DNA from: Gamsiella multidivaricata
Lineage: Eukaryota > Mortierellomycota > Mortierellomycetes > Mortierellales > Mortierellaceae
Assembly: GCF_025024155.1 (NCBI RefSeq)
Contig: NW_026251756.1
Location: 246,395-310,394, forward strand
Length of the DNA stretch: 64,000 bases
Direction of reading: 5' to 3'
Position numbers and translations under genes: made by a program. This document shows positions 4,995-56,483 of the stretch, one piece after another. Under the pieces are notes generated by a model that was not told the origin of the DNA, did not search any database, and was given only the letters and a program-made list of their open reading frames with translations. Position 1 is the stretch's first letter; each line of letters opens with the position of its first letter.

Positions 4995-5099
4995 GTTGGA
5001 GGAAGGAGAAGAAGGCGTGGGAAAGAAGCAAGTTCTCAATGGATGTGAGTACAGAACAATTCGGGCTCAAATACGTCACAGAACGCATCCTTATAAGAA

Positions 5100-6409
5100 A
5101 GTACTGCATCTGAACTATGGGTACATCTACATAGTCTATAATCGCTTAACGCCAGCCTGCTTGCTTGCGTCCTCCAGCTTGTCCTTGCCCTTGCCCATGC
5201 CCCACTGCGCAACTGCTGTTGCTGCTGCTTTCCCTCAGTTTCTGTGTGCGGTCTTGCATCTTGCATCCAAAGGTAGTGCCCGTCTTTATCTACTGGCTGA
5301 AGATAGAGCGGTCGCTGTTGATGGGGTAAATGGCTGCGAACGACGTTGCAAATGCTGCGCCCTGCCAAATATTGCGGTGCATGAAAATGCTGCAGGTTGA
5401 GCAGTATAGCCTGCAGATCTCGACCTGTCATAGTTCAAACTTCGGTGAGGCAATAGTCCACTCCCCCGACTGTGGATGTGATTCGAAGGGCAAGACATTT
5501 TGCGGGAGTCGCCCGTATATGATCGACTGCAGTTCTTTTAGCTTGAAAGCTAGCAGCTGAAGGAGAAACCTGTCTGTTCGAATGGAGTCTCGGTGAGCAT
5601 AACCGCGTCCCTCGTAAGTCATAGGATCGAAGTTGGCCTGCCGAATGGATTGAACGTGTTCTCACATCATGCTCAGGTCCATCACGGATGTCGAATCCTT
5701 GCAATCTCTCGGCCCTTTGCGTGGCTCACGCCTGCTGAGGTTCGAAAATATCTCTGTGGTAAGGAACTCAGGAGCTTACCGCTCAAGCCAATCGATCAGG
5801 TCATACTGAGAAGGAATGATGTCCTTGTTCTCGTAGTCCACCAGTATTAGCTCCTGAAGTTCTTTCTTCAGCGCAGTATTTTGCCAAAACAAGACATCGA
5901 GCACACGTTTAGAGAACGACATGAAAGGCTGCTCCGCGCCCGTTAGTGGAGCCGTCTGGCGACAACTCTTGGGACCAATAGAAGGCCGAGCTCAAGTGTT
6001 TTCTGATGTCGATGAACTGGTGTTTCCGCACGCGAAGCTTTTTACCCACGCGAACCTCGAGCTCACACAGACGTTTGTCGGCGCGTTCAACAGCTCTCTC
6101 GCGAAGGTTCTCTCGGCGCACTTCAATGGGTTCTTTTTCTTCCGAAGGAAGGCCGTCCAGGTAAAGAACCAAGTTCGTCTAGGCCCCAAGCTTCAGTATC
6201 TCTCGCTCGACAATGCGGTGAGCATCGTTCATAGGATGCGAGGAATAAGCGTAGCGAACGCTGACATAAAAAGACCCAAGGATATCGACCCGAATCGCCG
6301 AATTACGATCAGTGAAACTGGCGAGGCTGGATAGGTAGGGGGACTGATTGCGAAGAACGGGTTCATACCTTTTCTTTCTTAGAAAGGGCCACAGGCCCTC
6401 AATACCCAT
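5100..6409 (-). pseudogene. Decayed PIN/XPG plus RuvC (Fanzor-like) nuclease copy
   Basis: This is a broken relative of the gene at 28.1-32.2 kb. The N-terminus (6409 downward) reads MGIEGLWPFLRKKRYEP, an XPG/FEN1 N-domain start, then an in-frame TAG at 6181-6179. After it the same frame continues VLYLDGLPSEEKEP and RKHQFIDIRKHLSSAFYW, matching the other copy's VIVYVDG and FTDVKTNMASTFYW. At about 5622-5430 a segment with IRTDRFLLQLLAFKLKEL matches VRTDGFHLQLLCFKRREL of the other copy. At about 5410-5240 a zinc-ribbon/RuvC-III remnant reads CSTCSIFMHRN, then in another frame SICNVVRSHLPHQQRPLYLQP. The expected HRD is HRN here, so the RuvC-III aspartate is lost. Most of the middle (about 2.5 kb relative to the other copy) is missing and at least three frame changes occur. 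It is certainly non-functional. Confidence 0.7.
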
Positions 6410-23446: not shown

Positions 23447-24860
23447 GATGTAGAGTGTATTATTGTAAATATAAGGAAAAGAAAGAAAGACGTGTAAGGG
23501 TCTAAGAACAAGCAAGTGGCAGCAGTGGATGTGAGAGGCACTTTGTGCATCTTTATACACCCTGCCGCGGGCTGCGGGCTGCAGTGTGAACACATCTGAG
23601 GGAGTCCCAAGGCAACGCAAGCGATTACGCACTTTCGATTGCTTTCGAAGGAGGATGCATCTGAGTCTCATAGTTGCGCTCCGCCCCGCAGACACCTCCC
23701 TTCCCCTGCGTAGTTGTTTCTTAAAGAAAACCATTCGACAGCCAATCGAAGAGGGCCATACAGTCCGGGTAACCACCTCGCTTTTTATCTTTTATTTTAC
23801 TTTTATTTACTGAATAGGCTTTGTAACGCACGCGTAGACCCTGCCTCGCTTTTTTTCCCTTTTCCAGTCCCCTCTCGCGCTTCGCGCTTAAATCTGTATC
23901 CGAAAAGTGTACATGTATGTCCCAGCCGGGATCATGATTGTCAATCCTAAAAGCATCCATAGCAAACCGGCTCAGGCAATGGCAGCGCCTCACACCCATA
24001 CTGCTAATTGCGGGAGGACTGCGGGGGGGCAGGGGATACACTGCAGTCAAGGCGCGGGTACTTTACATCGAGTGCGGTACTCGATCCCTTCCCCCCTTTC
24101 CTCCCCCCTCCTCCTCCTCGACACATGTAGCTACCTGGGACAATGCACAAGGGCAACGCGCAGAGTGGTTCTATTCCTCGTCCCGCGGCACTAATGCAGG
24201 CAACAGGTCCTGTTCGATGGATTTGTTACTGCAGTGTGCCCTTTTTGCTGCCTGCAGATAACCAACACATGTCATTGTATTGCGTGATGTAGGCTGCACA
24301 TTCAGTGCTAGGCCTGCAGCATGCAGCGCAGGCACCAACAGACGCCGTTATCACAGCCTTCCTCTTTATTGGGGGGCCAGCGTCTCCTTACCGTTCCTAC
24401 CCCCATTCCAGAACATATTCCGACTACTATTGCTTGGATGCTCAAGCTGCCCCCTCTTTCTCAGACATATAATGGATCAAACCCCCTTCGCATCTCTTGC
24501 AGCACGGTATCCAGCTCTATAGTTATTCCTTCCCGTTATCGTCTACCATTGTGTGAGGAAACTTCCAAGCTCCTATCCACCTAGACGTATTTGTATGCGA
24601 TATGCCTGGCGGTTGTCGGCTCAGGACACGAGCAGGCGTTGCATTTACATGCTTATGATTAAATCTAATGGACATCCATACATCGACAAGCGTTTCTTTC
24701 TCAAGTGCTTGTTCCTTGAGGGCCGCGCTCGGGGTTAAGTATGCACGTTACTCAAATCAACCTAATGCCCATGGCAACTTCCACGTCACTTGTGGGGTGG
24801 AAAATAACGTTGGAAATAACATCACGGTTGAGCCTTCTGTATTTGACTCGTACCAGAGGA
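23447..24860. other. Long spacer without supported gene
   Basis: The promoter of the MFS gene lies at its left end, and the 3' end of the MULE-type transposase begins at its right end. C/T-rich and G-rich patches (about 24020-24120) are present. Short frames lack protein-like composition. The transposon's terminal repeat should lie here, but I could not identify it by eye. Confidence 0.4.
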
Positions 24861-27656
24861 CTATTTTTGATACCGCTGTCCTGCTTGTGAGGCATTCAGG
24901 CCTTGAATCTCGAGTAAAGTGTTTTTTGTGGTCGCCACAACAGATTTGAGGTACTCGAGTGTACATTTCCTTTTCTTTCTTGCCTCCACTGCGGCGCCCA
25001 TTTGCTTCATCAACCCCATTAATAAACCCTCATTATCCTCAAACTCTTGTCTGGTCGCCACTTCTCTGGCAACTCTTTCGAATTCCTGCTCTGCTGCCCT
25101 TTTCCGGTCGAGTTGCAAACGGAGTAATGGCGCTAATCCTGCCTCCAAATCTGGTCCGAAAAAATCCATATTCTGGACATGTTGCTCCTGAGCGACGGCA
25201 GGTTCAATGGCAGATTCAATCGCAGGCTCACCGGAATAGGATACCCTCACACTTTTATAGAGCCTCTGAACCAGGTACATGTGCTTGCAAGGGATCAGGT
25301 GAAGACAATAATCGGCACAACTGCATGACACAATGCTGGTAACATCGTTGTTGTGGCGGACAATGTATGAAACGTCAGCTCTAACAAAGGATTTGACGAC
25401 AAACTGGAAAAAAGGATGGTAAAAAAGTAAGCATAAGCATGAAACCACAACCACCACGATATTTTTGACAAATTAAGCCAAGCCAGAACCTACTTTGTGC
25501 TGGATCAGTGCCTCAACCATAAGCAGGGCAACATTAAGATCCAGTCTCATTGCCTCTTTTTTCCTCCTAGCGTCGTATGTTGACAATGGCGGGTCAGCAA
25601 ATTCCTCTGTAATCTGGTAAAGTCTCTTCTGGAAGTCAACGTCCACTGCTCCCTGCAACAGAAACACAAGATCATCCGGGTGCAGATTACGCTGACTTCC
25701 TAGATGGTGCCTCTTCAACGTCTTGTGCCAGCTTTCTACAAGGTTGTTGGTATTGATATGCTGGTAATTCTATATTGCAAAACAATAAGGATAGTGGTTA
25801 ACGGTTATGTGCAAGTTGGACGGGAGTCAGCCTTGCCTAACAACACTCAATTTAGCCTTTCTCACAGTACCTTTCTAAGGTACAATGCCCATTTCTCCAC
25901 TCGTTCTGGGACCATCCACGTTTTCAGGTAGTTGATCATCTTCTTACGTTTCAGGAACGCCTTTGTGAAACCATCCCACTTCTGCACTCGCTCTGCATCA
26001 GTTCTGGCATTCCGTATCTCTTTCAAAGGTAGTCGCATAGCATTACAGACGTCAACCTATGAGAATAGAAACAGAACAATGACAGTGTGTTAGGAGTATG
26101 CTGCCACTCAACCCTTTTCCTTTCCTTATTGAATCGTTGCACTTGCTCCATGATATTCTTTTGTCTTTCGCTCCCATGCCTGTGCAACATGAAACGAGCA
26201 GTAATAGATATCCAGTGTCTTGAATGATTGTCGTAACGCCTCTGTTTCTGTCTGGGAGCAGTCTACCATGAATTTGGACGCGTTCAAGCCACAGTGCTCC
26301 CTTGACCCATTTCAGCCAGGTCCTAAGAGTATTACTAAGGAAAAAGTGTTAAGGGCACTGACAGTCAAGGAGCAACGAGAGTAAAGTAATAGAGAGAGAT
26401 GAATCGTTTGGTGAGTAGGGAAGCAGGGCGTAGAAACAAGAGACGACAGGACAACTAACATTGATTCAGAGTTGCAAACCATGAAGGCAATTGGTATGCC
26501 AATATTCGCTGCTCGATCTCGGACAAGGAGAGTGAAAAGGTATGCAGATGGGAACACTTTCTCGTTATCTGGATCAGGCAGCAATGATCTGACGGCCTTG
26601 TGCGTCGAATCCATGCAGACGATGCCATGGTGACTTGACATAACCTTGAGGGTGGTACATGAAGATAATAGAGCTTGGTCCTTAGTAGAAAGGCGCGGAG
26701 GAATTTCAACAAAGCATAAACTTAACCAAGAGCTCACTTCCAACTGGAACTCGGTGGACCAAGCAAAAAAGTAATTGTTTGTAATCCCGCACACGTTATC
26801 AACAAAATGGCCTTTTCCACCCTCCTTCTCGATTTGCTCCATCTAGAGCTTCACGCTTGTAGTGGGGTTGATTGACTTACGAGACCCACTTGTCCTTGCG
26901 CGGTACACAGCAGAACGCACATCATTGTACTTCATGTAGTACAAAGGAGCAGCAGGGCCTTTAATTTTTCGGGATCTTTGCTACAATTCAGGCAAGAAGA
27001 GAGTTGTCAGCACTGAACGTTTGAACCCAAGAACAATGAAAAATATTGTAACAGAATGCAGCTGTGCCTCTTACATGCATAATTGACTTTTTGTTGGGAC
27101 GCAGCAATGCCTTTATTGCTGCCCATTTCATACCGCTGCGAGCCTGCTTTGCGGTCCAAGTTCGTTCATTTCTGCCCAAAGGAATCCTCGATCTTGCTGA
27201 GCCAGAATCGTCATGAGAATGCCTCCATTTGTACGAGACATTCACTACCTCTTTACCGACTGGTTTTGTCATCCTGATCTCGACAGGACAGGCTGCACCA
27301 ACAGAGTCGCGGGTGATAGTCAATTTTGTTGGTCTTTTGTGCCTTCTGCAACTGAAACGAAAGCTCCAATCATTCCGTTTTGGTGCGCCAACTGAGCCTC
27401 CATAACCCACAGGTCTAAAAGTCGGGAGTTGACTGTCAGGGCTACCCTTCAAGAGACCGTGATTACACCCTCCTTCAGTGCGATGCACAAATTGAATCGC
27501 GGTTCGCTCCCGATGCCAGAAGGTCTTAAAATCGTCAGCAGACAATGCCGCTTTCCAAATTTCGTTCTCATGTGAAATCACGTTTGGCGTGTATAGTGTG
27601 GTGGGATCGAAGTCGCTAGGATCGAGTAAGATGTCCTTGACTCTGAGACCGGACAT
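24861..27656 (-). mobile_element. MULE (Mutator-like) transposase gene, probably with one frameshift
   Basis: This is a multi-exon minus-strand transposase from the ATG at 27656 (MSGLRVKDILLDPSDFDP) to 24861. The N-terminal zinc/WRKY-GCM-like DNA-binding part is seen in RFSCRRHKRPTKL, CPVEIRM and VSYKWRHSH. The MULE catalytic domain follows: GIVCMDSTHKAVRSLLPD (first Asp), KFMVDCSQTETEALRQSFKT (second Asp), YYCSFHVAQAWERKTKEYH, and NNLVESWHKTLKRHHLG (the Glu). A SWIM zinc finger closes it (CSCADYCLHLIPCKHMYLV), followed by a coiled, charged tail. Near 26290 the frame changes between TWLKWVKG and HCGLNASK with no intron signal, which looks like a one-base deletion and would inactivate this copy. 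It faces away from the PIN/Fanzor-like gene with about 415 bp between them. Confidence 0.8.
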
Positions 27657-28070
27657 GAGAAGAGAATAAAGTGAGAGAGGAATGGAATAAAACAAGCTTG
27701 ATTTTTTTAAATTGATTTCAGACGTCTTTGCTCTCTGGTGACTTGACTTCTCCCAGCTCAGCAGGTAAGGGAATGATTCCTAGCTTTCCTCACTTTTCAG
27801 CCCTAAACTAAACTCTGGGAATGTTTATGGTCAGGTCCAAATGACCGTTCTCTGTCCAAAGGACGCATTCAATTTATTTTTTAGGACAAAGCCGTACATC
27901 AACCTTAACTCCTCTTTTTGCATTTCAAACTTCAATAGACTTTGGTGATTTCCCACTTTCAACCCTCTTTCTCTTTCAACTCTTCACTGCCCTGATTCAA
28001 TTACTTCATTCCAGCAAACACACTACACAATCGACCACGACTCTTCCCTCGCACTACTCGACTTCACGGG
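27657..28070. promoter_or_regulatory. Divergent spacer between MULE transposase and PIN/Fanzor-like gene
   Basis: A non-coding 414-bp spacer separates two divergent starts. It is pyrimidine-rich on the plus strand near 27950-28050 (CTCTTTCTCTTTCAACTC), resembling a fungal 5' leader. Both genes may share this promoter. Confidence 0.4.
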
Positions 28071-31000
28071 ATGGGTTTGAAGGGTTGGTTCCCCTTCATT
28101 TGCAAGAAGGGATACGAGCCCACAGTCATTCAGCAATCAGGAACAACAACAACCTCAACCACATCCACCAAGAGGATCGATTTGCTCTCGCGGTTCTCGG
28201 TCATTCGTACCGCCTATACACAAAACTCTGTAGAAAAGGCCCATGCGATCCTGGAAAAGGATATTGAGCAGTTCGGTTCCAAGGATACTGTTATTGTCTA
28301 TGTGGATGGAGCCCAGGCGCAAGAGAAAGAACACACCGCACAGGCTCGACAGAAGACCCGAGAGAAGGCGGCAAGCCGTTGCAAAGAGGCCTTGGACTTT
28401 CTTCAAGACAGGATCGACCGCAATTTAAAAGTCGGAAACGACACTTCACAGATGTGAAGACAAATATGGCATCAACATTCTACTGGTCCCTGCCCATTCG
28501 AGCGTCCTTTGTGGAGTATATGACCCAAGCGGGATGGAAGGTATAGACCTGTGAGACTGAGGCCGACGTCGCGATCGCTCGGGACTGCGAACCAGGCGAC
28601 ACTGTTGTTTCTGCAGATAGCGACATGATGGCCTACCCCAGTACCTCAACCTTATGGCGTCCTATCGCCAGGAACTTGATCTTGGTATACAATCTGAAGG
28701 ACGTCCGTCGCACTCTCGACTTCTCAGAGGCCCAACTCACAGCCCTTGCAGTTGTATCTGGCAACGATTACGGCAAGAGCATCTACTCGCTTGGTGCAGC
28801 TACCAATTACTCTGTTATCAAAGCCATCCGAGACAAAGGTATTTTATATTGATGTGTGTGACAGAGTTAGACTTTGACCTTTAACTAACTAAATATTGTT
28901 TGCCACTCTTTTTAGACACCCTGGGTACAGTAGCCGAGTATCTGAACGATCCCAAGGTTGCATCCAAGAATGCTGCTGTCCGTAACAACGAGGAAAAGAC
29001 ATTTGAAGTGGCCATCAAAGTTTTCGTATATCTCAAGCAGACTCCTGCCACCAGCAGTCCCCCTCTGTTGGAAGCCCAGCCTACGGCGATCTTCACAGAC
29101 GGTTTTTGGATCTTTGTGCCCTGTATAGGCAACAAAAGGAAAACGGCCCTTCACAAACGAGGTAAATTGTTTTGGTCTTTTTTTTGAGCAATGGCTTTGC
29201 ATTCACTCCTTCCTTCATCTCATCTCTGCCTTATTTTTTTGATGTTTATAGTCCTCCCGAGGTGCCCATTATACGACTGCACCACTCTCATGCGGCGATC
29301 AGGTTCAAGACTGTGGAGTCGCCTGCTGTGCTGAAACGTGTCTCTGGTCACTTGGGATCATTGCCATCACAAGAGCTTCAGTCAGATGTGCAGGACCAGT
29401 CAACTGTCTCCTCAACGTCGTCTCAGCAACTAGAGAGACACCCACCATTAGCGAGGGCAAATATCCCAAAAAATCGTCAAAATACTCCTTCAAGATGAGG
29501 ACAGGATCAACCCAGCGCCCACCGCCAGACAAGATGAAGGTTTATAAGTTTAAACCATACAAGGAATGGACCGACTCTCCTGAAGACTCAACCCTGGACA
29601 GTAAAGCCAAACCCAAGGTCAAGCCCAAGCCCAAGTTCAAGATCAAGACCCTCGCTACTTCGACTGCAAATACCAGGAAGCTGGCAGTCATGCGCCACTT
29701 GGCTTACCATCATCCCACCTCGTCCCTTAAAGTTGGTACTCTGGCCGCGAACGTCAAGCGAGCAGTACCAAACAATGGTGTTCTCCAACAAGAGGTCATA
29801 CATTGCATCCGAGATCTGATGCAGGAAGCAGCCCGAGTAAAGCGGAAAGGCCAGCAAGTGATCGGAAAGTTTGTCGACTACATCAACAAGCATGGACTAG
29901 GACCCATTGATCGTCAATTTATGGATCTGTTCTGTCCTCGAGTATCCATGAATGATGTCAAGGATGAGGAGAATGAAGAGACGGAGGAGGAGGGGATGGG
30001 GACAGCGAGGACGATTTGGACGACAAGCCAAAGGGTGGCGGAGGCTCTGCTCAGTCCTCTTTCCTGTTGAGTTTCCTGACATCCATATACTCTGGAAACC
30101 GCTCAAGAAATGCTGGTACTGGCTCGACAGTCAATGAATTTATTGATCGACCCATTCATCTCCAGCTGTACACACCACCACCACCGGCATCTAATGGCTG
30201 CAAGCACAAAGCAGTCTTTACACCATCGGAACTGGTAGCATCCGTCTTCACCCAACTCAGGGTCGAACTCAAGAAGATGTACAAGAACGGTTCCTGCGAT
30301 CTGTACAAAAAGGTAAGGGTTGCAAACTGCTAGTCAGTTCAATATGCATCAAGCCAACAGCAAACAAAGGTAATTATTCTTACTTATTATCTTCTATCTC
30401 TTGGATTGTAGCTCATGGCAAGAAAGGAAAAGGGTCTCTTGGGTTCCGACGTTGATGTGGAGATTCAGGGGAAGTATCTGCTGTTGAGAACTTCCTTGCC
30501 CTTAACAAAATCAGTCCAAACCCTCGAAGGATCATTCCCATAACAAATTCAAGGCAACCGTTTGTGAGTTTTACGGAGCGTAACCTTGTTGGGTTCTTTT
30601 TCAGTCGTGGAGGGGTTCTGAGAGCTCAAGTTCAGGAACTGGTCGGTACCATCTGCACTTCTATTGTAGATGCCCAGGAGCATATAGGCAATATGGAACC
30701 TGGGATTCTCATCAAAAAATTCCTGGCTGATATCGGTCTCAAGGGCCTGACCAATCGCCAGCGGCGAAAAGCAGGGCATCGTGGGGCAATCGAGTTGCTA
30801 AACCTTGAGGAACTCGAGACCGATCTTCATATGTTGGACAGCAAGGACTTCCGACCGGAAACTTATCTCACCAAGAAGTATGTCCCAAGAGGGACAGTGC
30901 GGACCGATGGCTTCCATCTACAGCTATTATGTTTTAAGCGCAGAGAGCTTCTGTCAGTCAAGTGGAAACGGCTTCCTCAAGATCGATTGCCACGACGATT

Positions 31001-32194
31001 GACTACGACACTCCATGGAACCGGCGACCACCTGACTGAAATTCGAAACGTCCTTGGAAGCAAGGAGGACATAGCACAACTTTGGCCAGATGTCGATCCC
31101 CGTGACATCAAGACACTCACCCTCGATGCCGGTCAGGCTTTTGTAGTAGGCGCCTACGCACATCTACCACAATCAAGCAAAGGCAAGGATCCAGTGCTTG
31201 GTGCTGTATCAACCTTTGAGGCCCCGTCCACCATTGCGTCTCCTACAACACCAATGGCACCACCGCCAGTGCAGGACTCGACACAATCACCATCTTCAGC
31301 GGCGCACCACAACAAGACGCCTCATCATAATCTTACCGTAAACCAAAAGGCGGTAATGCAGCCCACATTTCGATACCGGCGATGGCTCCAGGAAGCGAGT
31401 AAGGTGGTTCCTGAGGGCCAACCACAGTCTATTGAGCAAATCGAGTCCCAGCTTCCTCCTCTTCGAGGTCCAGAGGCTAGTGTAACCAACTATGTCGCAA
31501 GACTGGAACAAGTTGAGGACCAACTGATGGAGTTTTACAATGGGAACAACAATCGATCCAAGAAAAATACGTGGGACATGGAGCGTGCCAAACACATCGA
31601 ATACCAGGCCATTGCCAACAGTTTACTCAAGATCGTTGGTGTGGGCCTGGGTGATTTCAGAAGCTCGAAGCGGCTATCATCTCTGCATGGGACGTTTTTG
31701 TCTTACTTCATCCCTCTGGTAGGCAAAGTATTTATTTTTATCATCTATAACACCTTCAAAAAACCGACCGCAAATGAGTAACATTTTTTTCTTAATTTTA
31801 TACATAGGCGCGCTCCCTCGGATACGTTGTTGTTGGTATTGAAGAGTACTATACTTCAAAAAAATGCCCGAACTATGAGGAGTTTGTGGCCCAGGTGACC
31901 ATACGCTAGCTCTTCTGCCCCCACTGTGGCAAGTATTATCACAGAGATGTTATGGCGGCGCAAAACATGTCCAATATCGTCCAAGGGCACCTTTTGGAGC
32001 AGAAAAGACCTCTCTACTTGCAGCCCAAAACAGCAGATGGAAGGTATCCCTGGATCGAACCGTCGACATCCGATCAAGGGGCAGTTGATGGAATCAGCAA
32101 GTCCACTGGAAGCACGAGTGCTCGCAAGAAACGATCGTCTCCCGCAACCCCAACATCAAGGAAACGCCCTACCAAGATGGCTAAAGAACTTTAA
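28071..32194 (+). pseudogene. PIN/XPG nuclease fused to Fanzor/TnpB-like RuvC nuclease (broken)
   Basis: N-terminal XPG/FEN1 fold: MGLKGWFPFICKKGYEP, VIVYVDGAQAQEKEHT, then ETEADVAIARDC, VVSADSDMMAYPS and LTALAVVSGNDYGKS with a helix-hairpin-like SLGAATNYSVIKAI. A basic linker follows (KPKVKPKPKFKIK) with a helical block. The C-terminal half is Fanzor/TnpB-like: RTDGFHLQLLCFKRREL, RuvC-I TLTLDAGQAFVVGAYA (Asp codon 31125), VGVGLGDF at the RuvC-II strand without the usual Glu, then VVVGIEEYYTSKKCP, FCPHCGKYYHRDVMAAQN (zinc ribbon and RuvC-III Asp, codon 31946). Lesions: a frameshift near 28425, TAG at 28544, frameshifts near 29990 and between 30480 and 30550, TAG at 31907, and a ribbon Cys changed to Tyr (CPNY). 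Introns at about 28837-28915, 29161-29251, 30313-30411 and 31719-31807. One unit or two adjacent genes is discussed in the findings. Confidence 0.75.
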
Positions 32195-32413
32195 TTATTG
32201 TGTGTCAGGTCACACACACCCAAATGCCGATAATAGCAACGATTTTTACGATTTAGGTGACGTAATTGTAGATTTCATAGTGCTATAGTCGTGGGGTGAG
32301 GCCATCATCGCTCAGCTGTCATCTGTCAACGACATCTCCTTCCCTGATCACTCCTGCATCCACTCATTCAGACAATATAGTATATCCACGGCAGGAAAAA
32401 CAACAACAACACG

Positions 32414-33447
32414 ATGTTCCACAAACTCACGCTCCTCGCCGTCACCCTCCTGGTTACCATCCAGTCGGTGGCAGCTTTCAACGTGGTCGTGCCTGCCCAG
32501 GAGCGCCGATGCTTCTTTGAGGTCCTTGAGAAGGGCGACAACCTCCACGTTTCGTTCCAAGTCGGCGAAGGTGGTCATCTCGACATTGATTTCTGGGTAA
32601 TGATCATTCTGGATAGGGGCTGATTTGCCTGTTTGAAGCTATTAGACAGGGAACACACGATCGCGCTCCTCCACCGCGTCGTTGCACATGCGACGGTTTG
32701 CAGAAGATGGCTATGGACCTCGGCCGAAAACAAAATGAAGACGCTGTTAGAATCCTGTATACTGACCTTTGGCCTTTCATTACTGACCTTGTACTCGTAC
32801 GCGACCTCTCACTATAGATGACTGACCCCGATGGTACCCTTGTCGAGGATGCGACTAAGTCCGCCTCGGCTACGTACAACCATGAGGCCAAGGTCAGCGG
32901 CAAGCACGAGTACTGCTTCAGCAATCAATTCTCGACTGTCACCGAAAAGACTGTTGGATTCAATGTTCTGGTTATGAAGCCCTACAAGGAGGACCCAAGT
33001 ATGCAATGTCTATGTCTATGTCTATGTCTTGAAAGGTCACTCTTCTTTTATTATAGTCGGTTTGCTGACAGTTCTGACATTCTTATTTCTCGATAATAGC
33101 GCACAAGATTGATCCTTTGGAGAACGAGATCCGCGAGTTGGCTGCCGGTATTCAGGAGATCAGGAACGAGCAGGAGTACACCTTGGCCCGTGAGAGAACG
33201 CATCGTAACAGTACGTTTTTTGACGTTCATCATTCAGGACCCAATTGATCCAAAGATCACGACATACCTCTGCTGCAGGGACTATTGCGCTAACGCTGAT
33301 ACTTCTTCATTTCCCACAATAGCTGCTGAGAGCACAAACTCGCGTGTTGTGTGGTGGTCGCTCTTCCAGTCTGGCATTCTTTTCCTTGTCTGCGTTTTCC
33401 AAATCACGTACCTCAAGCGATTCTTTGAGGTCAAGCGGGTTGTCTAG
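32414..33447 (+). CDS. EMP24: p24-family cargo receptor Emp24 (p24 beta)
   Basis: p24 proteins cycle between ER and Golgi and load GPI-anchored and other cargo into COPII vesicles. Exons 32414-32596, 32818-32998, 33100-33210 and 33323-33447 give 199 residues, the family length. A signal peptide (LTLLAVTLLVTIQSVAAF) precedes the GOLD domain with its two cysteines (RRCFFEVLEKGDNLHV and HEYCFSNQFS). A coiled coil follows (ENEIRELAAGIQEI), then the highly conserved RERTHRN-TAESTN-RVVWWS, one TM helix and the cytosolic tail YLKRFFEVKRVV. The tail carries the FF COPII-binding motif and a C-terminal VV. The THRN/TAESTN and RFFEV signatures match Emp24 rather than the Erv25/delta type. Confidence 0.92.
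33007..33029 (+). repeat. Microsatellite (TGTCTA)n in an EMP24 intron
   Basis: About four tandem TGTCTA units sit at the start of the second EMP24 intron, just inside the donor site. They do not affect coding. Confidence 0.7.
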
Positions 33448-48886: not shown

Positions 48887-49307
48887 CACCATAGCGTGTG
48901 GTGCAGAGTGACAGTTGAGCTGCGCACACAATTGCTCATATTGATTTGTGACTGCTTCTACGCGCTCACGCGCTTGCACGCGTACCTCTGCCACCGTATG
49001 CTCGATCAACATATGTTCAACGAAGTATCTTTATTGATATTGCCATTATCCGGCCCGCCTAGAACCATTGTCCGGCCCGTCTAGAACCATTGCACCAGAT
49101 CCATACCTTTGTGCTATTCCTAGCAAATATACCTCGCGTCCCGTAGTAGCCATCCGAGTACCCTGACCAAGAATCCTAGAAACACATAAATAGAGCCATA
49201 GAATCCATAGCATATAACCTCAGTCTGCAATGCATTTCTTCCTTACCTTGTCCACTGTCTGTCTCCTCCATAACACATATCCCACTCTTCCAAGTCTGTT
49301 CCTGACA
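48875..49307 (+). repeat. LTR of retroelement A (5' LTR, plus orientation)
   Basis: The 433-bp repeat begins TGTCACGG and ends CCTGACA, giving the inverted termini TGTCA/TGACA typical of LTRs. A closely similar copy lies inverted at 56484-56927. The boundaries come from where the two copies diverge and from the TG..CA ends. It is followed by a gag-like frame. Confidence 0.75.
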
Positions 49308-49329
49308 TTGCAGACTCTCCAATCCAGTC

Positions 49330-49764
49330 ATGTCCGCCCAAGATGAATTTACCCAGCACCAGCAGCTTCTGCAGCAGCAGCAGGCGAATCTCCTTGGTGC
49401 CCTGCAGAACCATGCGCAAGACCCGAACACCACTCCTGACGCATTTGTGAACCATCTCCGCGAACTCTTGTCCGTTATTGACGCCCGTACCAACTCCATT
49501 GCCAGCCATCTCCAACAAGCGAACCATCTGACGACCTTGTCCGAGGCCGTCAACGTTATCCAAGTCCAGAACCAAGACGCAATGCAGCAGCAGACCAACA
49601 CGATCGCTGCCCTCCAGAATCTGGTCCAAGCCATCCTGGACCGAACCCCCGCGCCTACCGCCGCTGCCGCTTCTCTCCAGACAGCCGCTCGTCGTCCACA
49701 CATCCCGCACCCCTTCACGCCTGCGTTCAATGGTGATGCCAAAGTCCTTTCCTTCCGTGCTTTT
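49330..49764 (+). mobile_element. Gag fragment of retroelement A, truncated
   Basis: A Gln-rich frame opens at MSAQDEFTQHQQLLQQQQAN, runs through RRPHIPHPFTPAFNGDAKVL and stops being coding where the chromovirus LTR begins at 49765. The PFTPAFNGD motif recalls the start of Ty3-type gag capsid domains (compare SPTAFNGVRDGF in the chromovirus gag). The element is therefore interrupted right after the start of its capsid region. Confidence 0.6.
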
Positions 49765-49952
49765 TGTAACAGGATAACCCCGCTTATAGCCCCGACTCCG
49801 AAAGGACTGGGGCCTCGGCTATAGACAACCGGCCGGGCCGGAACCGGACCGTAGACATAGATATATAGACCAGCTAGTTGCCATCTTAATACAGCACGCA
49901 TTCCAACCCTTTCCATCCTTACCCCTGCCCTCGACTGCCTAGAGCTATTACA
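49765..49952 (+). repeat. 5' LTR of chromovirus
   Basis: The 188-bp direct repeat starts TGTAACAGG and ends CTATTACA. It is identical to 54913-55099 except for a single C in the CCGGCC(G)GGCC run. The termini TGTAA/TTACA are inverted. Confidence 0.93.
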
Positions 49953-49966
49953 TGGTAGCAAAGGTT
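49953..49966 (+). other. Primer binding site of the chromovirus
   Basis: TGGTAGCAAAGG directly follows the 5' LTR. TGGTAGC is complementary to the 3' end of initiator-methionine tRNA, a usual primer for Ty3/Gypsy elements. The match beyond the first seven bases was not checked against a tRNA from this genome. Confidence 0.6.
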
Positions 49967-50100
49967 CTTCGATCCCCTGCACCTCTGTCCCTGAACCACG
50001 ATCCCCCTGTACCACGAAACTCTGCTAAATTTTTACCCTGATCCACCAATTAAATTAAACCTTGGCCGACCAACTGTCATCCCTTTTTTCCTCCCTAACC

Positions 50101-51036
50101 ATGAATGAATCCACCCCTGCCCCCGCCCCTGCCCCCGTCCAGGTCCTGTTACCCTCCTACAGGTACCCGTCTCCCACTGCCTTCAACGGAGTGCGGGATG
50201 GCTTCGCTTGCGAAGCATGGCTTACCACTGTCCGCCGTTTTTTCATTGGTGCTCGCATCAGCGAAGACTCGCGCACGGTCACAGCTGTTGCGTACCTCGG
50301 CCCCACTGGCCTCCTCTGGTGGGACGGCTTGCAAGCGCCGGACACGACACCCTGGTTCCAGTTCGAGGAGCTTTTTCGAGCGGAGTTCCGCCCCGCTGGA
50401 TTTTATGATCATGTCCGAACCCTCCTCTTCGGAATCAAAATGTCTAGCACTGTTGCTGACTATGTCAGTCGCACTCGTCGCTACCTGGCCATTTTGTGCA
50501 CGAACGAGACCCACCCTGAGGCTCGTATTATGCTCGAGGACTCTGCCAAGTCATGCTTCTTGGCAGGCGCCCCGTTAGCCCTGCGCCAGATGTTGATGAG
50601 CCTCGCCATCAACAGCCGCAGCCCGGTGTCTATCCACGAGATGTGTCAGGCTGCCGAGCAGTTTGACACCATTTATAATTTCTCCTTACCCAATCGCACT
50701 CCCACTAACGCCAACCATGCCACTCCTACCCCTGCACATGCCTTCCTCACCGCCCACACCGCCAGTCTACCCGACCCGATGGCCATGGAGTTGGATAACC
50801 TGCGACTGGAGCTCAATGCACTCCGCCGCCAGGTCAACAACAATAACGGCCGCCACAACCTCGCCCCACTCAACGACACCGAACGCGCCCGCCTTCGAGC
50901 CCGGGGTGCTTGCTACAAGTGCCGACAAGACGGCCATATGGCACGAGACTGCCGTGGCAGCAATATGAACAACCTCTCGGTTGCCGCGGGTGTTGGTTCT
51001 GCTTCGGCGGGAAACGCCTCCAGCGATCAGGCTTAG
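50101..51036 (+). CDS. Chromovirus Gag
   Basis: From the ATG at 50101 the frame encodes 311 residues. A Pro/Ala-rich start is followed by the Ty3-type capsid (TAFNGVRDGFACEAWLTTVR, WFQFEELFRAEFRPAGFYDH) and, near the end, a CCHC zinc knuckle (CYKCRQDGHMARDC) that binds genomic RNA. The frame is intact. It overlaps pol by about 127 nt with pol in the -1 frame, suggesting programmed frameshifting, although no slippery site was confirmed. Confidence 0.9.
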   Translation: MNESTPAPAPAPVQVLLPSYRYPSPTAFNGVRDGFACEAWLTTVRRFFIGARISEDSRTVTAVAYLGPTGLLWWDGLQAPDTTPWFQFEELFRAEFRPAGFYDHVRTLLFGIKMSSTVADYVSRTRRYLAILCTNETHPEARIMLEDSAKSCFLAGAPLALRQMLMSLAINSRSPVSIHEMCQAAEQFDTIYNFSLPNRTPTNANHATPTPAHAFLTAHTASLPDPMAMELDNLRLELNALRRQVNNNNGRHNLAPLNDTERARLRARGACYKCRQDGHMARDCRGSNMNNLSVAAGVGSASAGNASSDQA

Positions 51037-54000
51037 TCCAGGACTTGGTCGCTGAAGTTCCCTCCCCTTCTCTTCTGGACAAGGGGAGTGAGCACCACTC
51101 AGAGTTAAGTAATTATTCCTCAAAAAATAAAAACAATTCCACTGTGCCTATGCTCGCTCCCTTCCAATCGTACAAAAATGCTCCAAGAAAAGCAAAGACA
51201 ACAAAAACAACCATCGAATCTCACCATGCCCCTGATGTCCTGCCAACCGTCTCAGACAAACCACAACCCACGTACGACCCGTCCGTGGTGTCTAGGTCGT
51301 CTGAGGCAGTGGACCTGGACCCACTTGCCTCTCTCGCTACTCTAGCACCAGCCCTCTCCAAGACCCAGCTGAAGCGCCTTCGTAAGCGTACCGTTCGGCT
51401 GCAGTCCTTCACAACGGCTGAGGCCGAGCGCACCCTCCTGACTTTTATTGGTTCTATTAACGGTCGCCCCGCCCACATCTTGATTGATGGAGGAGCAGAA
51501 GGAAACGTCATTAGCTCTTCTTTTCAAAAACGACATTCACTTCCTCTCCATTCCTGTTCCCCCATTCCTATTGTTCTCCCCGACGGTACTTTTTCCATCA
51601 CCAATCACTCCGCCTCCATCACACTCGAACGAGATTCCTATTCCGACACCATCAACACCCTTCTTTACCCCCTTAAAAAATACGACCTTATCCTCGGTAA
51701 ACCATGGCTCACACACATCAACCCCAACATCGACTGGCGTACCAACGACCTTCATTTCACACATAATGGCAACACCGTTCATTGGACGTGTCGAGGCTTC
51801 GCACCCTCATCCATTACAGCTAAGTCCCGTGGCCTCTTGATGAGTCACTTGCACTTTCATACTCTTGCAGCTCAGCCTGACGCGGAAGTGTTCATGGCTC
51901 TGGTGAAAATCGGCGGCGACAACGACAATGACAACGACGGCGATGATGAAAACGACGACGATACCAAACCTTCCACACCTGATCTTCCGCCCGAAGTCCG
52001 ACCCATTGTACTTCAGGAGTTTGCAGACGTCTTCCCCAACTCACTCCCCGCCGGTCTACCACCAGACCGAGGGGATGCTATGAAAATCGAGACTGACCCC
52101 AACGCAGACCCGCCATTCCGCCCTGTGATCCGCCTCTCTATTGCGGAACTGGACGAGCTCAGGAGACAGCTCGACGACCTCCTCGCCAAAGGATTCATTA
52201 AGCCCAGCACATCGCCTTATGGCGCGCCCGTCCTTTTCGTCAGAAAAAAGGATGGTGCGCTCCGAATGTGCGTTGACTACCGTGGACTCAACCGAATCAC
52301 AAGGAAGAACCGCCACCCGCTCCCTCGCATCGACGAGCTCATCGACAGGTTCCGAGGGGCACGATACTTTTCGAAACTGGACTTGCTGTCAGGATACCAT
52401 CAGCAACGGATATTTGAGCCTCATACGCACAAGACAGCATTTCGCTGTCGGTACGGACACTACGAGTTCAATGTGGTACCCTTTGGTCTCACTAATGCTC
52501 CTGCATCTTTCTCCAACATGATGTTCAAGGTTTTGGATCCGGTTTTAGACAAATGGGTTGTTGTTTATCTTGATGACATTCTTATTTACTCCAAGACGAA
52601 ACAAGAGCACATTGCCCACATCCGAAGTGTGCTGGCGCTCCTCCGCAAGAACGGCCTCTATGCGAAGTTGAGCAAGTGCTCCTTCATGCAAGAAGAAACT
52701 GAATTCCTCGGACATGTCATCTCAAAGGATGGCATCCACACCAGCGCCGGCCACGTCAAGGCTATCAGGGAATGGCCTCGCCCATCGAAGCAGAAGGACG
52801 TGCAACAATTCATTGGCCTCGCACAGTTCTACCACACATACATCAACAACTTTGCTAACATCGCTCTCCCTCTCACGGCTCTGTTAGGTGAAGGCGTGGA
52901 ATTTTCCTGGGACACGGACAAAGAACGCGCTTTCACCACCCTGAAGGAGGCGATCAGCAAAGCACCTGTGCTGCGAATATTCGATCCCGATCTACCAACC
53001 ACAGTTGAAACCGACGCGTCTGGATTCGCGCTAGGCGCTGTCTTGTTCCAGACTGATGAACATGGTGAGTCAAGACCCGTGGCGTTCACGTCCCGCAAAC
53101 TGAACAGCGCCGAACGCAATTATCCCACCCACGAACAGGAACTATTGGCGGTTGTGCACGCACTTCGGACATGGCGATACTATCTGGACGGGACACATTT
53201 TGTCGTTTACACCGACCATGCTACTCTTCAGCACTTCCCAACCCAACCCAAGTTAACTAGACGCCAGGCACGATGGATGGAGTTGCTGCAGGAGTACGAC
53301 TTCGACTTCAAGTACAAACGTGGAGTCGACAATATCGTTCCCGACGCTCTATCGCGACGACCGGACCATCATGACCAAGACCCCCCTGCAGTCAACATCA
53401 ACTCAATGACCGTTCAGCTGGATTCAGGTTTGAGGCAGCGCCTTGTAGACAGCTACCGGGACGACCCCAAGCTCGGTCCCATCTATGAAAGCTGCCTCGA
53501 GGGAAGTACACCACCGCGTTACCGCTTGATTGATGGTCTTCTTTGTGTTGATCGCAGAGGAGACAACCTTGTCTGCATCCCCCAGAAATCTGACATTCGT
53601 CTCTCTCTTCTTCACGATGCCCACGACTCCGCCATCGCCGGCCACCTTGGTTTCGACAAGACATACGATGCACTCCGTCGCACTGTGTACTGGCCTCACA
53701 TCGCACGTGACACCCGGCAGTACGTGCAAACCTGTGAGAGTTGCCAACGGAACAAGCCCAGCCACCAGCGACCTGCCGGTCTACTCCAGCCCCTCGAGAT
53801 CCCTACTCAGCGATGGGAGACGGTGACGATGGATTTTATTGTCAAGCTACCCAAGACTCCTCGCGGCTATGACTCCATCACGGTCTTCGTCGACAAACTG
53901 TCAAAGCAGGTCCACTTCGTCCCAGCCCACACCACCGACACAGCATCCGACGTAGCTCGACAGTTCTTTGACAACGTCTTTCGCTTGCACGGCATGCCGA

Positions 54001-54608
54001 CCTCGATCGTCTCTGATCGCGACACTAAGTTCACCAGTCGTTTTTGGAAGGAGCTGCACCGCCTCATGGACGTCAAGCTGGCCATGTCGACCGCCTTCCA
54101 CCCTCAGACCGATGGACAGACCGAGCGTGCCAACCAGACACTGGAGTCCATTTTACGCGCCTTCGTGGACCAGCGACAGACAAACTGGGATCTACTCCTA
54201 TCCGCCGCTGAGTTCGCCTACAACAACTCCAGCAATGCCACCACTGGCCAGTCCCCATTTTTTTTGAACCTGGGATTTCACCCACGCGTACCGTCGTCTC
54301 TGCTACAACCTCAGCCCAGTCCCAATCCCAGTGTCATGGAATTCGTAGAGGCACAGAGCACAGCATTAGTCCTCGCGCAAGAGGCCATCGCAGATGCTCA
54401 GGAACGGCAGACCAAGAATGCGGATTCTCGTCGCCGTGATCACGATTTCAAAGTTGGAGACCAGGTGCTGCTGAGTACAGAAGACATCACTGTTGCTGCT
54501 GACAGGAATCGCCCCACCAAGAAGTTGCAGGCACGCTTCATCGGACCTTATACCATCCTGGAACGCACTCACCGGTCTCTTTCCGCATTGAGCTACCCCC
54601 GGCCATGA
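50910..54608 (+). CDS. Chromovirus Pol (protease, RT, RNase H, integrase)
   Basis: This is an uninterrupted frame of about 1230 codons. In order: aspartic protease (ILIDGGAEGNVIS and YDLILGKPWL), reverse transcriptase (FVRKKDGALRMCVDYRGLN, KLDLLSGYHQ, VVYLDDILIYSK catalytic YLDD), RNase H (TVETDASGFALGAVLF, TDHATLQHF), and integrase. The integrase has an H-H-C-C zinc domain (HDSAIAGHLGFDKTYDALR, CESCQRN) and a DDE core (MDFIVKLPKT, IVSDRDTKFTSRFW, QTDGQTERANQTLE). The frame stops at 54608 just after the integrase C-terminal domain. The downstream part with the chromodomain is in another frame because of a one-base indel near 54565. All catalytic residues listed are present. The numbered start is a frame boundary, since Pol is expected to be made by frameshift from Gag. 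Confidence 0.93.
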   Translation: MLQVPTRRPYGTRLPWQQYEQPLGCRGCWFCFGGKRLQRSGLVQDLVAEVPSPSLLDKGSEHHSELSNYSSKNKNNSTVPMLAPFQSYKNAPRKAKTTKTTIESHHAPDVLPTVSDKPQPTYDPSVVSRSSEAVDLDPLASLATLAPALSKTQLKRLRKRTVRLQSFTTAEAERTLLTFIGSINGRPAHILIDGGAEGNVISSSFQKRHSLPLHSCSPIPIVLPDGTFSITNHSASITLERDSYSDTINTLLYPLKKYDLILGKPWLTHINPNIDWRTNDLHFTHNGNTVHWTCRGFAPSSITAKSRGLLMSHLHFHTLAAQPDAEVFMALVKIGGDNDNDNDGDDENDDDTKPSTPDLPPEVRPIVLQEFADVFPNSLPAGLPPDRGDAMKIETDPNADPPFRPVIRLSIAELDELRRQLDDLLAKGFIKPSTSPYGAPVLFVRKKDGALRMCVDYRGLNRITRKNRHPLPRIDELIDRFRGARYFSKLDLLSGYHQQRIFEPHTHKTAFRCRYGHYEFNVVPFGLTNAPASFSNMMFKVLDPVLDKWVVVYLDDILIYSKTKQEHIAHIRSVLALLRKNGLYAKLSKCSFMQEETEFLGHVISKDGIHTSAGHVKAIREWPRPSKQKDVQQFIGLAQFYHTYINNFANIALPLTALLGEGVEFSWDTDKERAFTTLKEAISKAPVLRIFDPDLPTTVETDASGFALGAVLFQTDEHGESRPVAFTSRKLNSAERNYPTHEQELLAVVHALRTWRYYLDGTHFVVYTDHATLQHFPTQPKLTRRQARWMELLQEYDFDFKYKRGVDNIVPDALSRRPDHHDQDPPAVNINSMTVQLDSGLRQRLVDSYRDDPKLGPIYESCLEGSTPPRYRLIDGLLCVDRRGDNLVCIPQKSDIRLSLLHDAHDSAIAGHLGFDKTYDALRRTVYWPHIARDTRQYVQTCESCQRNKPSHQRPAGLLQPLEIPTQRWETVTMDFIVKLPKTPRGYDSITVFVDKLSKQVHFVPAHTTDTASDVARQFFDNVFRLHGMPTSIVSDRDTKFTSRFWKELHRLMDVKLAMSTAFHPQTDGQTERANQTLESILRAFVDQRQTNWDLLLSAAEFAYNNSSNATTGQSPFFLNLGFHPRVPSSLLQPQPSPNPSVMEFVEAQSTALVLAQEAIADAQERQTKNADSRRRDHDFKVGDQVLLSTEDITVAADRNRPTKKLQARFIGPYTILERTHRSLSALSYPRP

Positions 54609-54889
54609 AGATACACGATATATTCCACGTTGACCGCTTTCGACCCTACTTACCTTCACCGGTGACATTCGGCCGACGTGCACATGCGAGGCCAGCACCA
54701 GAGATCATTGATGGCGAGGAAGAATACGAGGCTGAGACGATCATGGAGCATCGAAACAACAACAATCGCGTGGAGTACCTGGTCAAGTGGCAAGGATATG
54801 CAAGGGAGGACTCCACATGGGAACCAGAGAGCAATATGACCAACTGTGCGCGACTTTTACGGCAGTACAAGAAACAGCATAGACTGTAA
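54560..54889 (+). CDS. Chromovirus integrase tail with chromodomain (out of frame)
   Basis: It continues Pol in another frame: VSFRIELPPAMKIHDIFH, then a chromodomain (EYEAETIMEHRNNNN, VEYLVKWQGYAREDSTWEPE, NCARLLRQY) ending at 54889. Chromodomains of this type steer integration to histone-marked heterochromatin. The ATG at 54605 is internal and probably not a true start. The frame break relative to Pol needs checking in reads, as it could be an assembly error. Confidence 0.85.
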   Translation, partial: GTHSPVSFRIELPPAMKIHDIFHVDRFRPYLPSPVTFGRRAHARPAPEIIDGEEEYEAETIMEHRNNNNRVEYLVKWQGYAREDSTWEPESNMTNCARLLRQYKKQHRL

Positions 54890-54912
54890 AATTATTTTTT
54901 TTAATGGGAAGG

Positions 54913-55099
54913 TGTAACAGGATAACCCCGCTTATAGCCCCGACTCCGAAAGGACTGGGGCCTCGGCTATAGACAACCGGCGGGCCGGAACCGGACCGTA
55001 GACATAGATATATAGACCAGCTAGTTGCCATCTTAATACAGCACGCATTCCAACCCTTTCCATCCTTACCCCTGCCCTCGACTGCCTAGAGCTATTACA
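54913..55099 (+). repeat. 3' LTR of chromovirus
   Basis: The 187-bp repeat is nearly identical to the 5' LTR at 49765. It is preceded by a purine-rich GGGAAGG tract that can serve as polypurine primer. The base following is C, and the five bases outside each LTR (CTTTT left, CCTAT right) do not match. Confidence 0.93.
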
Positions 55100-55200
55100 C
55101 CTATAGACCATAGCAAAAAGAAAAGATATGGATGAGAACGTTTTTATATTAATACAAACTCTGGCAAGATATATTATCATTAGAACATTATTTTACGTGC

Positions 55201-55918
55201 CTACCATTCATTAGAGTGCTCGCGTGTATATGTCTCAAAGTCCGTCATGAACTTAAGGACATTAGAGCCGTTGTCACTGGTAATTGACATGACCTTTTGC
55301 CGTAAGTCAAAGCGCTCCACTACCTTGATGAATGCCTGCATCAATGCCTCGCCTGTATGTGAACCTTTTAGGTGTTCAAAGCCCAGAGTGACATCCTGCT
55401 GTATCCAATTGTCATCGATCCAGTGAGCAGTGACTGCAAGAAATGACGATTGAAAGGGGCTTGTCCAGCCGTCTAGGGTGAAAGCAACCATAGGTACTGT
55501 TGCAAGCTTGCCACGAAGAAGCTCCTCATATTCCTCATGCAGTTTCGAAATCTATATTGATGAATGGTCAAGTCATTATGGTTATTAATAAACAAACAAT
55601 TACGCTATTAGCAAAATACATTTTTGATTCAATATGTTGCGCCATTGTTCATTGTAGTTGGCATACCCTTTTGCTGATTGTGTCATTGGATGGCAGGTTT
55701 AATGCATCTGTAGAGGGCGCTGTATGTGCAAGGTCGAGTAACTCCTTTAGCAAAGGCGACTGGACAAAAGTATAAGGTAGCTTATGGCGGACCAGGATTT
55801 TACAGATATGCTGTTCAAGCACGTCTGTCGAAAAATGAGCTGAAGATCGCTTTCCCTTGTTTGCCAGAACGCTCTCAATAGATCCTGCTTGACCTGTGTA
55901 GACACTAGTGTTTCTCAA
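55201..55918 (-). mobile_element. hAT transposase fragment
   Basis: Read on the minus strand, 55918-55649 gives ILVRHKLPYTFVQSPLLKEL and SNDTISKRVCQL. After a short gap or intron, 55560-55201 gives ISKLHEEYEELLRGKLATVP, MVAFTLDGWTSPFQSSFLAV, THWIDDNWIQQDVTL-type and MSITSDNGSNVLKFM. These are the N-terminal part and the first catalytic Asp region of hAT transposases (RICESLEEPER-like). The C-terminal dimerisation part is absent, cut before the chromovirus 3' LTR. The 5' side abuts a palindrome at 55906. It is not functional. Confidence 0.8.
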
Positions 55919-56046
55919 AAATATTCGACTTTTATTCGACTCGTGCTAGGCCAATGTAAAATTCGAATGAAATTCGAAATTCGATTCGACAGTTACATTG
56001 GCCTAGCACGAGTCGAATAAAAGTCGAATATTTTTGAGAAACACTG
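55906..56046. repeat. Perfect long inverted repeat (hAT-type foldback)
   Basis: Left arm 55908-55958 and right arm 55994-56044 are perfect 51-nt inverted complements, separated by a 35-nt loop of TTCGAAT-type motifs. The ends TAGTG and CACTG fit the hAT terminal consensus YARNG. Flanks show no 8-bp duplication. Confidence 0.88.
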
Positions 56047-56483
56047 CTCAGCAGTAAGCCACGGGACTTAGCGGTTACAGAAGAGGGTGCAAACCCTTTG
56101 CAGGACCATCGAACGGAAACGCCTTTGTGGTGAAAGTGAAGACTGTTGTCGCGCCAGTTGATAGAAGGATTGATCTGAGTGAGCCAGTGTTTGCCGAGGA
56201 TGAGGTCGTAGGATTGGAGGTCATAGAGGAATGGTTGAAGGTTGTCGGCGTAGTTGTCGCGGGCGAGGGAGATGGAGGCAGTGTATTGAGTGAGAGAAGA
56301 GGAACCGTCGGGAAGGATAATTGGGATGGGAGAACAGGGGACGAGTGGGATAGAGTGATGGCGCTGGAAAGTCTTGCTGATGACATTTCTCTCAGCTCCA
56401 CCATCAATAAGAATACGTGCAGGGTGTCCACTAACAGAACCAATAAATGTGAGCAAAGTGCGTTCAGCAACAGCCGTGGTGAA
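56047..56483 (-). mobile_element. Protease-region fragment of retroelement B
   Basis: The minus-strand frame encodes a Ty3-type aspartic protease very like that of the chromovirus: FIGSVSGHPARILIDGGAER, PIIILPDGS-type, YDLILGKHWLTQINPSINWR. It lies directly after the minus-oriented LTR B without any gag, so gag is deleted. It is cut at the other end by the palindrome. Confidence 0.75.

Follow-up and report, generated by a model that had tools for sequence, protein, structure and literature searches.

The DNA analysed here is a 64,000-nucleotide stretch (hereafter the window) of contig C124 (NW_026251756.1) in the 37.5-Mb genome of the soil fungus Gamsiella multidivaricata (Mortierellaceae). 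Positions 28071-32290 of the window, on the + strand, are the right-hand gene of a transposon and encode one spliced protein of ~1200-1350 residues, in which a complete EXO1/FEN1-type nuclease core is joined through a linker to a complete Fanzor-type RuvC nuclease with a zinc ribbon. The fused gene belongs to a Mutator-like DNA transposon that carries a divergent, SWIM-type Mutator-like transposase as its left-hand gene. The copy in the window is decayed by stop codons and frame changes; relatives with unbroken frames exist. The original prediction, made from the letters alone, had drawn the feature at 28071..32194. The motifs do lie there, but the element is larger, with its right end at 32290 and a transposase remnant, absent from that prediction, at ~24861-27779, left of the fused gene and on the opposite strand.

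The motifs of both nucleases were all located, in the order predicted, on the + strand between 28071 and 31948: MGLKGWFPF (28071-28097), TEADVAIARD (within 28550-28585), VSADSDM (28607-28627), SGNDY (from 28757), RTDG (within 30897-30914), TLTLDAGQ (31113-31136), VGVGLGDF (31635-31658), EEYYTSKKC (within 31838-31867) and CPHCGKYYHRD (31916-31948). A Pfam scan of the window copy, submitted as seven pieces, gave relevant matches in three. XPG_I was found at 28547-28852 (E 8.6e-6, above the Pfam cut-off), Pox_G5, the FEN1-like G5 protein of poxviruses, at 28071-28457 (E 2.8e-5, below the cut-off) and Cas12f1-like_TNB at 31910-32194 (E 8.6e-4, below the cut-off). The four remaining pieces, including the one with RuvC-I (30456-31781), gave no relevant Pfam match. 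Chance occurrence of the motifs was ruled out by the Pfam matches together with the PDB sequence matches and structure matches given below.

Along the + strand, the EXO1/FEN1-type core (28071-28837) comprises the N-domain, the arch region, the XPG-I acids EAD and DSD and the SGNDY/H2TH part, as judged from Pfam, the motifs and the match of a full-length relative's structure to EXO1; its frame is broken here. It is followed by a probable intron with approximate ends (28838-28915), which runs gt...tag between conserved coding pieces and is read through in relatives. The end of the FEN domain and the start of the linker (28916-29160) were recognised by eye against aligned relatives and have no Pfam match. 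Behind a second probable gt...tag intron (29161-29252, ends approximate), after which coding similarity restarts in a different frame, lies the inter-nuclease linker (29253-29700). This is basic in places and corresponds to about residues 297-443 of a relative's model, much of it at low pLDDT (predicted local distance difference test). The Fanzor-type body (29701-31716) consists of an N-terminal helical part, the RTDG beta segment, RuvC-I and the VGVGLGDF strand, and corresponds to model residues 444-1119, which align with SpuFz and PpFz. A further probable intron lies inside it at ~30313-30411. The fourth probable intron (31717-31808, gt...ag, ends approximate) separates IPL from a piece that continues as ARSLGY in relatives. 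The last coding part (31809-32194) carries the alternative RuvC-II glutamate, the zinc ribbon, the RuvC-III HRD and the C-terminal tail, and gives way to a conserved 3' noncoding tail (32195-32290) with a hairpin and the terminal sequence of the transposon.

The FEN acids, RuvC-I and the E-[YF]YTS site occur in a single polypeptide in nine of the 77 proteins collected, all of them gene models, from nine related fungi: Gryganskiella cystojenkinii (P0052), Entomortierella parvispora (P0055), Haplosporangium gracile (P0057), Linnemannia hyalina (P0058), Podila verticillata (P0059), Linnemannia gamsii (P0060) and three Mortierella species (P0061, P0063, which is a partial record, and P0064). A further protein, P0076, was left out of the nine, its regular-expression match to RuvC-I being spurious. 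The zinc ribbon is complete in seven of the nine, whereas the first cysteine pair (CxxC) is missing from P0052 and P0061. Searching with a joined full-length query gave 26 proteins, including models of 1186 to 1358 residues. Cas12f1-like_TNB was above the Pfam cut-off in all seven full-length proteins scanned (best E 8.9e-15); XPG_I was above it in one (P0060), below it in four and unlisted in two, namely P0052, which has a weak XPG_I_2 match, and P0061, which has none. Compared by sequence with solved structures, P0059 matched RAD2 at residues 163-260 (3.3e-4), LaTranC at 1133-1235 (7.6e-6) and the TnpB-like L79 at 1140-1201 (0.0019). Furthermore, the alignment profiles weakly matched Rad2, XPG, FEN1 and LaTranC (E <=0.01).

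Relatives were also found in the Gamsiella multidivaricata genome when each half was searched separately, as had been proposed, with at least 140 exon-level matches for the RuvC half and at least 88 for the FEN half; these and the following match and locus counts are lower bounds. Merging gave at least 78 RuvC, 83 FEN and 23 transposase loci. With the RuvC half of the window as a query, a RuvC half was found downstream of the FEN half, on the same strand and within 5 kb, at 37 of the 83 FEN loci, and two more were paired only in another arrangement. Of the 46 FEN loci that seemed to be without RuvC downstream, the three that were opened all carry a divergent RuvC half. In L044 and L045 the divergent RuvC half was followed through to the ribbon, and in L043 to RuvC-I and the GLGSF strand. 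Two divergent RuvC queries added 25 pairs, some through short matches, bringing the paired FEN loci to 62 of 83. The same architecture is found in three deeply different subfamilies, the window type, the L043/L045 type and the L044 type. A profile search from two divergent subfamilies yielded just one protein (P0077) among 8000 scored candidates.

Between L033 and L046 the synonymous differences (pS 0.75 and 0.64) are near saturation, and the ratio of nonsynonymous to synonymous differences (pN/pS) is 0.30 in both halves; in other pairs it ranged from 0.42 to 0.52, with 0.57 in the middle piece. The two halves have correlated pairwise distances (Mantel r 0.53, p 0.007, 10 proteins). Because the fusion is known from gene models and probable introns lie between the halves, neighbouring genes might have been joined by annotation pipelines. 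We consider this very improbable and reject it: the gene models of all nine fungi concur, the protein sequence that links the nuclease signatures is conserved, has invariant positions and from residue 444 onwards belongs to the Fanzor fold, and the order is kept at 62 of the 83 FEN loci. The fusion is real; it has diverged into several subfamilies and occurs in nine other Mortierellaceae-type fungi besides Gamsiella multidivaricata. The earlier proposal of an XPG-type and a RuvC nuclease in one protein is thereby borne out: the halves are not always separate, and the C-terminal half matches RuvC/Fanzor both through Cas12f1-like_TNB and in structure.

The L044-type RuvC halves at C24:12622-13980 and C24:64215-65573 are identical over 453 residues, which suggests a recent move or an assembly duplicate. 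P0019 from Apophysomyces sp. BC1021 (363 aa, partial record), a genus outside the Mortierellaceae, is 49% identical to the RuvC half of the window; horizontal spread or contamination may account for it.

Conservation of the active sites was counted in a 45-row alignment, in which the number of rows varies by column. Residues equivalent to the seven acids of FEN1, in FEN1 numbering, are conserved in 17/18, 21/21, 21/21, 21/21 (Asp for Glu), 21/22, 22/22 and 21/22 rows, and a Lys and an Arg of the arch at the spacing of FEN1 K93 and R100 in 21/21 rows each. The acidic pair of EXO1 is EAD. The window family likewise has EAD, whereas FEN1 has EAE. Both the EXO1/FEN1 core fold and the XPG-I profile were found. 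In the structure comparison of the N-terminal half EXO1 was among the tied best matches, and identity to EXO1 and FEN1 was 14-16% in superposition; fusion to a Fanzor-type nuclease and this low identity set the core apart from the known EXO1, FEN1 and XPG (Rad2) enzymes. The predicted FEN1-type flap nuclease is upheld in its core, acids and arch residues, but the models place it no farther from EXO1 than from FEN1. A 5' nuclease activity is predicted for this half on structural grounds.

The C-terminal half has the Fanzor/TnpB fold, matching SpuFz, GtFz and PpFz in structure comparison, and residues 444-1119 of the relative's model align with SpuFz 18-628. The RuvC-I Asp is kept in 36/37 rows and the RuvC-III Asp in 17/17, while a Glu at the GLGxF strand is found in just 2/31. 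A glutamate precedes the ribbon by six residues in 15/15 complete ribbons, which were defined without reference to it, and in 17/17 TSxxC sites; L044 and L045 have it too. The raw alignment column shows it in 15/22 rows, the remaining seven being models that end 16-33 residues later and lack E[FY]YTS. A RuvC-II glutamate at this place, six residues ahead of the first cysteine of the zinc ribbon, is a published Fanzor trait (PMC10711439), in agreement with the reading of EEYYTS and of GxGxF without Glu in the original prediction. The published Fanzor motif is D-X(125,275)-[TS][TS]XX-C4 zinc finger-X(5,50)-RD (PMC3627910). Fifteen of the 77 proteins have a TSxxC ribbon with an RD-type end, many of the others being truncated models, and the spacing from the RuvC-I D to TS is 189 residues in P0064 and 231 in P0002. 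A DPG at RuvC-I is described as near exclusive in Fanzors (PMC10711439). It is seen in divergent members (P0039, P0043, P0045, P0077, L043, L044 and L045), but RuvC-I is DAG in the window and mostly DAG, DGG or DLG in relatives. The predicted Fanzor/TnpB-like RuvC thus holds for fold, ribbon and glutamate and not for DPG, and we therefore name the protein Fanzor-type rather than a strict Fanzor. By analogy with Fanzor and TnpB, this half is probably an RNA-guided cutter.

The transposase gene lies on the - strand, and the region upstream of it (27740-28070) is common to the two divergent genes. Three parts of it remain in the window. The N-terminal part (26988-27779) was recognised by its position and by its likeness, judged by eye, to L036 4005-4727 and to the L038 frame, and has no Pfam match. 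The central fragment (26312-26842), DDE-side by eye and likewise without a Pfam match, has 28 genome matches that merge to the 23 loci. The C-terminal part (24861-25472) carries the SWIM zinc finger, which scores 1.1e-5 in L038 (25.3 bits, cut-off 19.6), 1.5e-4 in L036 (21.6 bits) and 0.038 in the window (14 bits, below the cut-off). At 16 of the 23 transposase loci FEN/RuvC lies within 8 kb in divergent orientation, at none is it near in another arrangement, and seven loci stand alone, perhaps because the element has no nuclease gene or is truncated by the end of a contig.

The right end of the element corresponds to window position 32290 in 6/6 close copies, with unrelated flanks beyond. Left ends vary among the close copies L031, L032, L034, L037 and the window (~24842), several of them lying inside or beyond the transposase, while the right end is exact. 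This pattern prompted a Helitron- or LINE-like reading, which was set aside because L036 has a terminal inverted repeat (TIR) with a 9-bp target-site duplication (TSD) and L038 a 12-bp repeat. In L036 the TSD is exact (GCTCAGCTT) and 26/35 TIR bases match, where the best of 200 shuffles reached 15; L038, which holds transposase, FEN and RuvC, is flanked by 12-bp direct repeats. A TIR with a 9-11-bp TSD was found in one (L036) of the seven loci examined, and the near-TSD of the window (8/9 bases) is within chance.

The divergent pairing with the transposase at 16 of 23 loci and the repeats at the element ends also suit a fused nuclease that serves Mutator-type transposition itself. Its FEN half would clear 5' flaps or overhangs at excised ends, or replace the host flap nuclease at insertion gaps, and its Fanzor-type half would mainly direct the protein to the element ends. 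This seems rather unlikely to us, since cut-and-paste elements normally borrow host repair and since the retention of both RuvC acids and of the repositioned glutamate speaks for a Fanzor half that still cuts.

About 100 noncoding bases after the stop codon are conserved across subfamilies whose synonymous sites are near saturation, and by eye the last part of this tail is similar to the L036 terminal repeat. The stop codon is directly followed by a GTGTGT-N6-ACACAC hairpin, found in the tails of the window (32195-32290), L046, L047, L011, L012, L013 and L025. Among 10 sequences, five of its seven pairs show no break, one is disrupted in two sequences and another in a single sequence. The hairpin is compatible with a candidate guide-RNA scaffold or an end-binding site. 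Of the conserved structured 3' RNA that the original prediction proposed to look for, the conserved hairpin was thus found, but the tests given below lent it no consistent support.

A complete nuclease core next to a short, conserved 3' noncoding tail might also mean that the FEN/EXO1-type half matures the guide RNA, trimming the 5' end of the transcript bound by the Fanzor-type half, and some FEN-superfamily enzymes do cut RNA flaps. We find this unlikely. EXO1, one of the tied best matches in structure, acts mainly on DNA, and TnpB processes its own guide with RuvC, so that a second nuclease would be unneeded.

The best explanation, and the one to which we lean on balance, is that the transposon carries a fused protein whose RNA-guided cut and 5' resection steer repair to copy-back. 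The transposase would excise the element, and the Fanzor-type half, RNA-guided like TnpB and Fanzor, would then cut the emptied donor site. The fused EXO1-type half may degrade or trim the 5' strands at the break. Such trimming would block simple re-ligation and channel repair to copying from the element-bearing sister chromatid or homologue, so that, through the fusion, a single enzyme would both make the cut and carry out the first step of homologous repair. The protein would then be a natural RNA-guided endo-exonuclease, in which a Fanzor-lineage cutter makes the break and an EXO1-type half resects it, and with which a Mutator-like transposon directs homologous copy-back after excision; this fuller statement is quite possible, and we put it forward tentatively.

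Besides the departure from DPG at RuvC-I, a number of observations weigh against this explanation. RNA guidance is inferred from the family, the cut at the emptied donor site from the analogy with TnpB and 5' resection from structure; the Fanzor superposition has a root-mean-square deviation of 11.7, and the predicted template modelling score (pTM) is 0.50 in both models. The MULE profile PF10551 was matched at E 0.012 (16.5 bits against a cut-off of 27.6) in one of eight fragments (L036 3129-3470). L036, the copy with clean TIR and TSD, has lost the FEN part that its sister L037 kept, while no TIR above the null was found in L038, no TIR with TSD above the null in L041 and L042, and nothing convincing in L046 and L047. 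At 21 of the 83 FEN loci no RuvC partner was found with the window and two divergent RuvC queries. As for a guide RNA, RNAalifold found covariation in 0/7 hairpin pairs (10 sequences), Rfam had no match in 24000-33000, and the fold z-scores of the 3' end were inconsistent (-3.1 for the window at 100 nt and -1.7 at 150 nt, -0.6 for L036, -1.2 for L038 and -1.8 for L039), so that these three tests gave no consistent support for one. The 11 right flanks compared by eye share no common motif, and therefore no target-adjacent motif is visible.

The same guide-RNA results, the flanks without a common motif and the drift from DPG to DAG, DGG or DLG speak for a Fanzor-type half that has lost RNA guidance and now binds or cuts DNA in a structure-specific way, the protein being the transposon's two-nuclease repair enzyme. 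We regard this as quite unlikely, considering that the whole Fanzor body is kept and not RuvC alone (residues 444-1119 against SpuFz 18-628) and that the RuvC-side piece is under purifying selection. An RNA-guided cut followed by 5' resection remains our preferred reading.

The protein resembles Fanzor1, represented by SpuFz of Spizellomyces punctatus and PpFz of Parasitella parasitica, in its Fanzor fold, TS-C4 ribbon-RD motif, glutamate position and carriage by a eukaryotic DNA transposon (PMC3627910, PMC10432273, PMC10711439 and PMC11423790). Unlike Fanzor1, it has an N-terminal EXO1/FEN1 nuclease of ~300 residues and a linker of ~150 residues, and the window subfamily has DAG, DGG or DLG for DPG and adjoins a Mutator-like transposase. 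MuDR-like elements that have 9-bp TSDs and carry Fanzor1 but no transposase have been reported from Rhizopus, Phycomyces and Mucor (PMC3627910, available sections). These share with the present elements the Fanzor gene, MuDR-like TIRs, 9-bp TSDs and an early-diverging fungal host, whereas they encode no MuDR transposase and the available sections mention no FEN fusion; here a divergent transposase gene is present. MULE-Mucorales elements have one open reading frame (ORF), SWIM, a 10-bp TSD and a 40-bp TIR (PMC6446971). They are alike in the SWIM transposase, the Mucoromycota host and repeat lengths near the 9 bp and 35 bp of L036, but the element here also encodes the fused nuclease in a second gene, which is read divergently.

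TnpB with TnpA in IS200/IS605 and IS607 is likewise a pair of transposase and RuvC nuclease in one element; here the transposase is Mutator-like and the nuclease is fused to an EXO1/FEN1 core. The element brings together a Fanzor-type gene and a candidate transposase. T5 exonuclease is a member of the FEN superfamily. Its engineered fusions with Cas12a or IscB (PMC11471210) also join an RNA-guided nuclease, guidance being inferred here, to a 5' nuclease; those are man-made for editing efficiency, whereas the present fusion is natural, transposon-borne and found in several subfamilies, an evolved counterpart to these genome-editing tools.

Fanzors are known as eukaryotic RNA-guided nucleases, but among the matches listed in full-text literature searches none was fused to a DNA-repair nuclease, be it of FEN or EXO1 type, preprints and most subscription journals being outside the coverage of these searches. 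The words XPG, FEN1 and Mortierella do not occur in the accessible portions of PMC3627910, PMC10432273 and PMC10711439, nor does the word fusion in that of PMC11423790, and PMC6338049 mentions TnpB/Fanzor without a FEN-type fusion in the part available. The fusion hints at a way in which transposons may influence the repair that follows an RNA-guided cut, and at why such a cut would lead to recovery of the element instead of end joining. Since the two active sites in one protein are separately mutable, this question is directly testable.

Elsewhere in the window, a short ORF at 5036-5434 on the - strand looks by eye like the fused nuclease's C-terminal tail (RPLYLQP...DG.YLW), and 5154-5429 is 81% identical to DNA just beyond the right end of the L034 element; the region is a probable fragment of another copy. 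A Ty3-type retrotransposon was recognised by eye at ~49200-56600, where its polyprotein ORF, 1253 residues long, spans 50847-54608; a second Ty3-type copy is represented by a fragment at 55932-56573.

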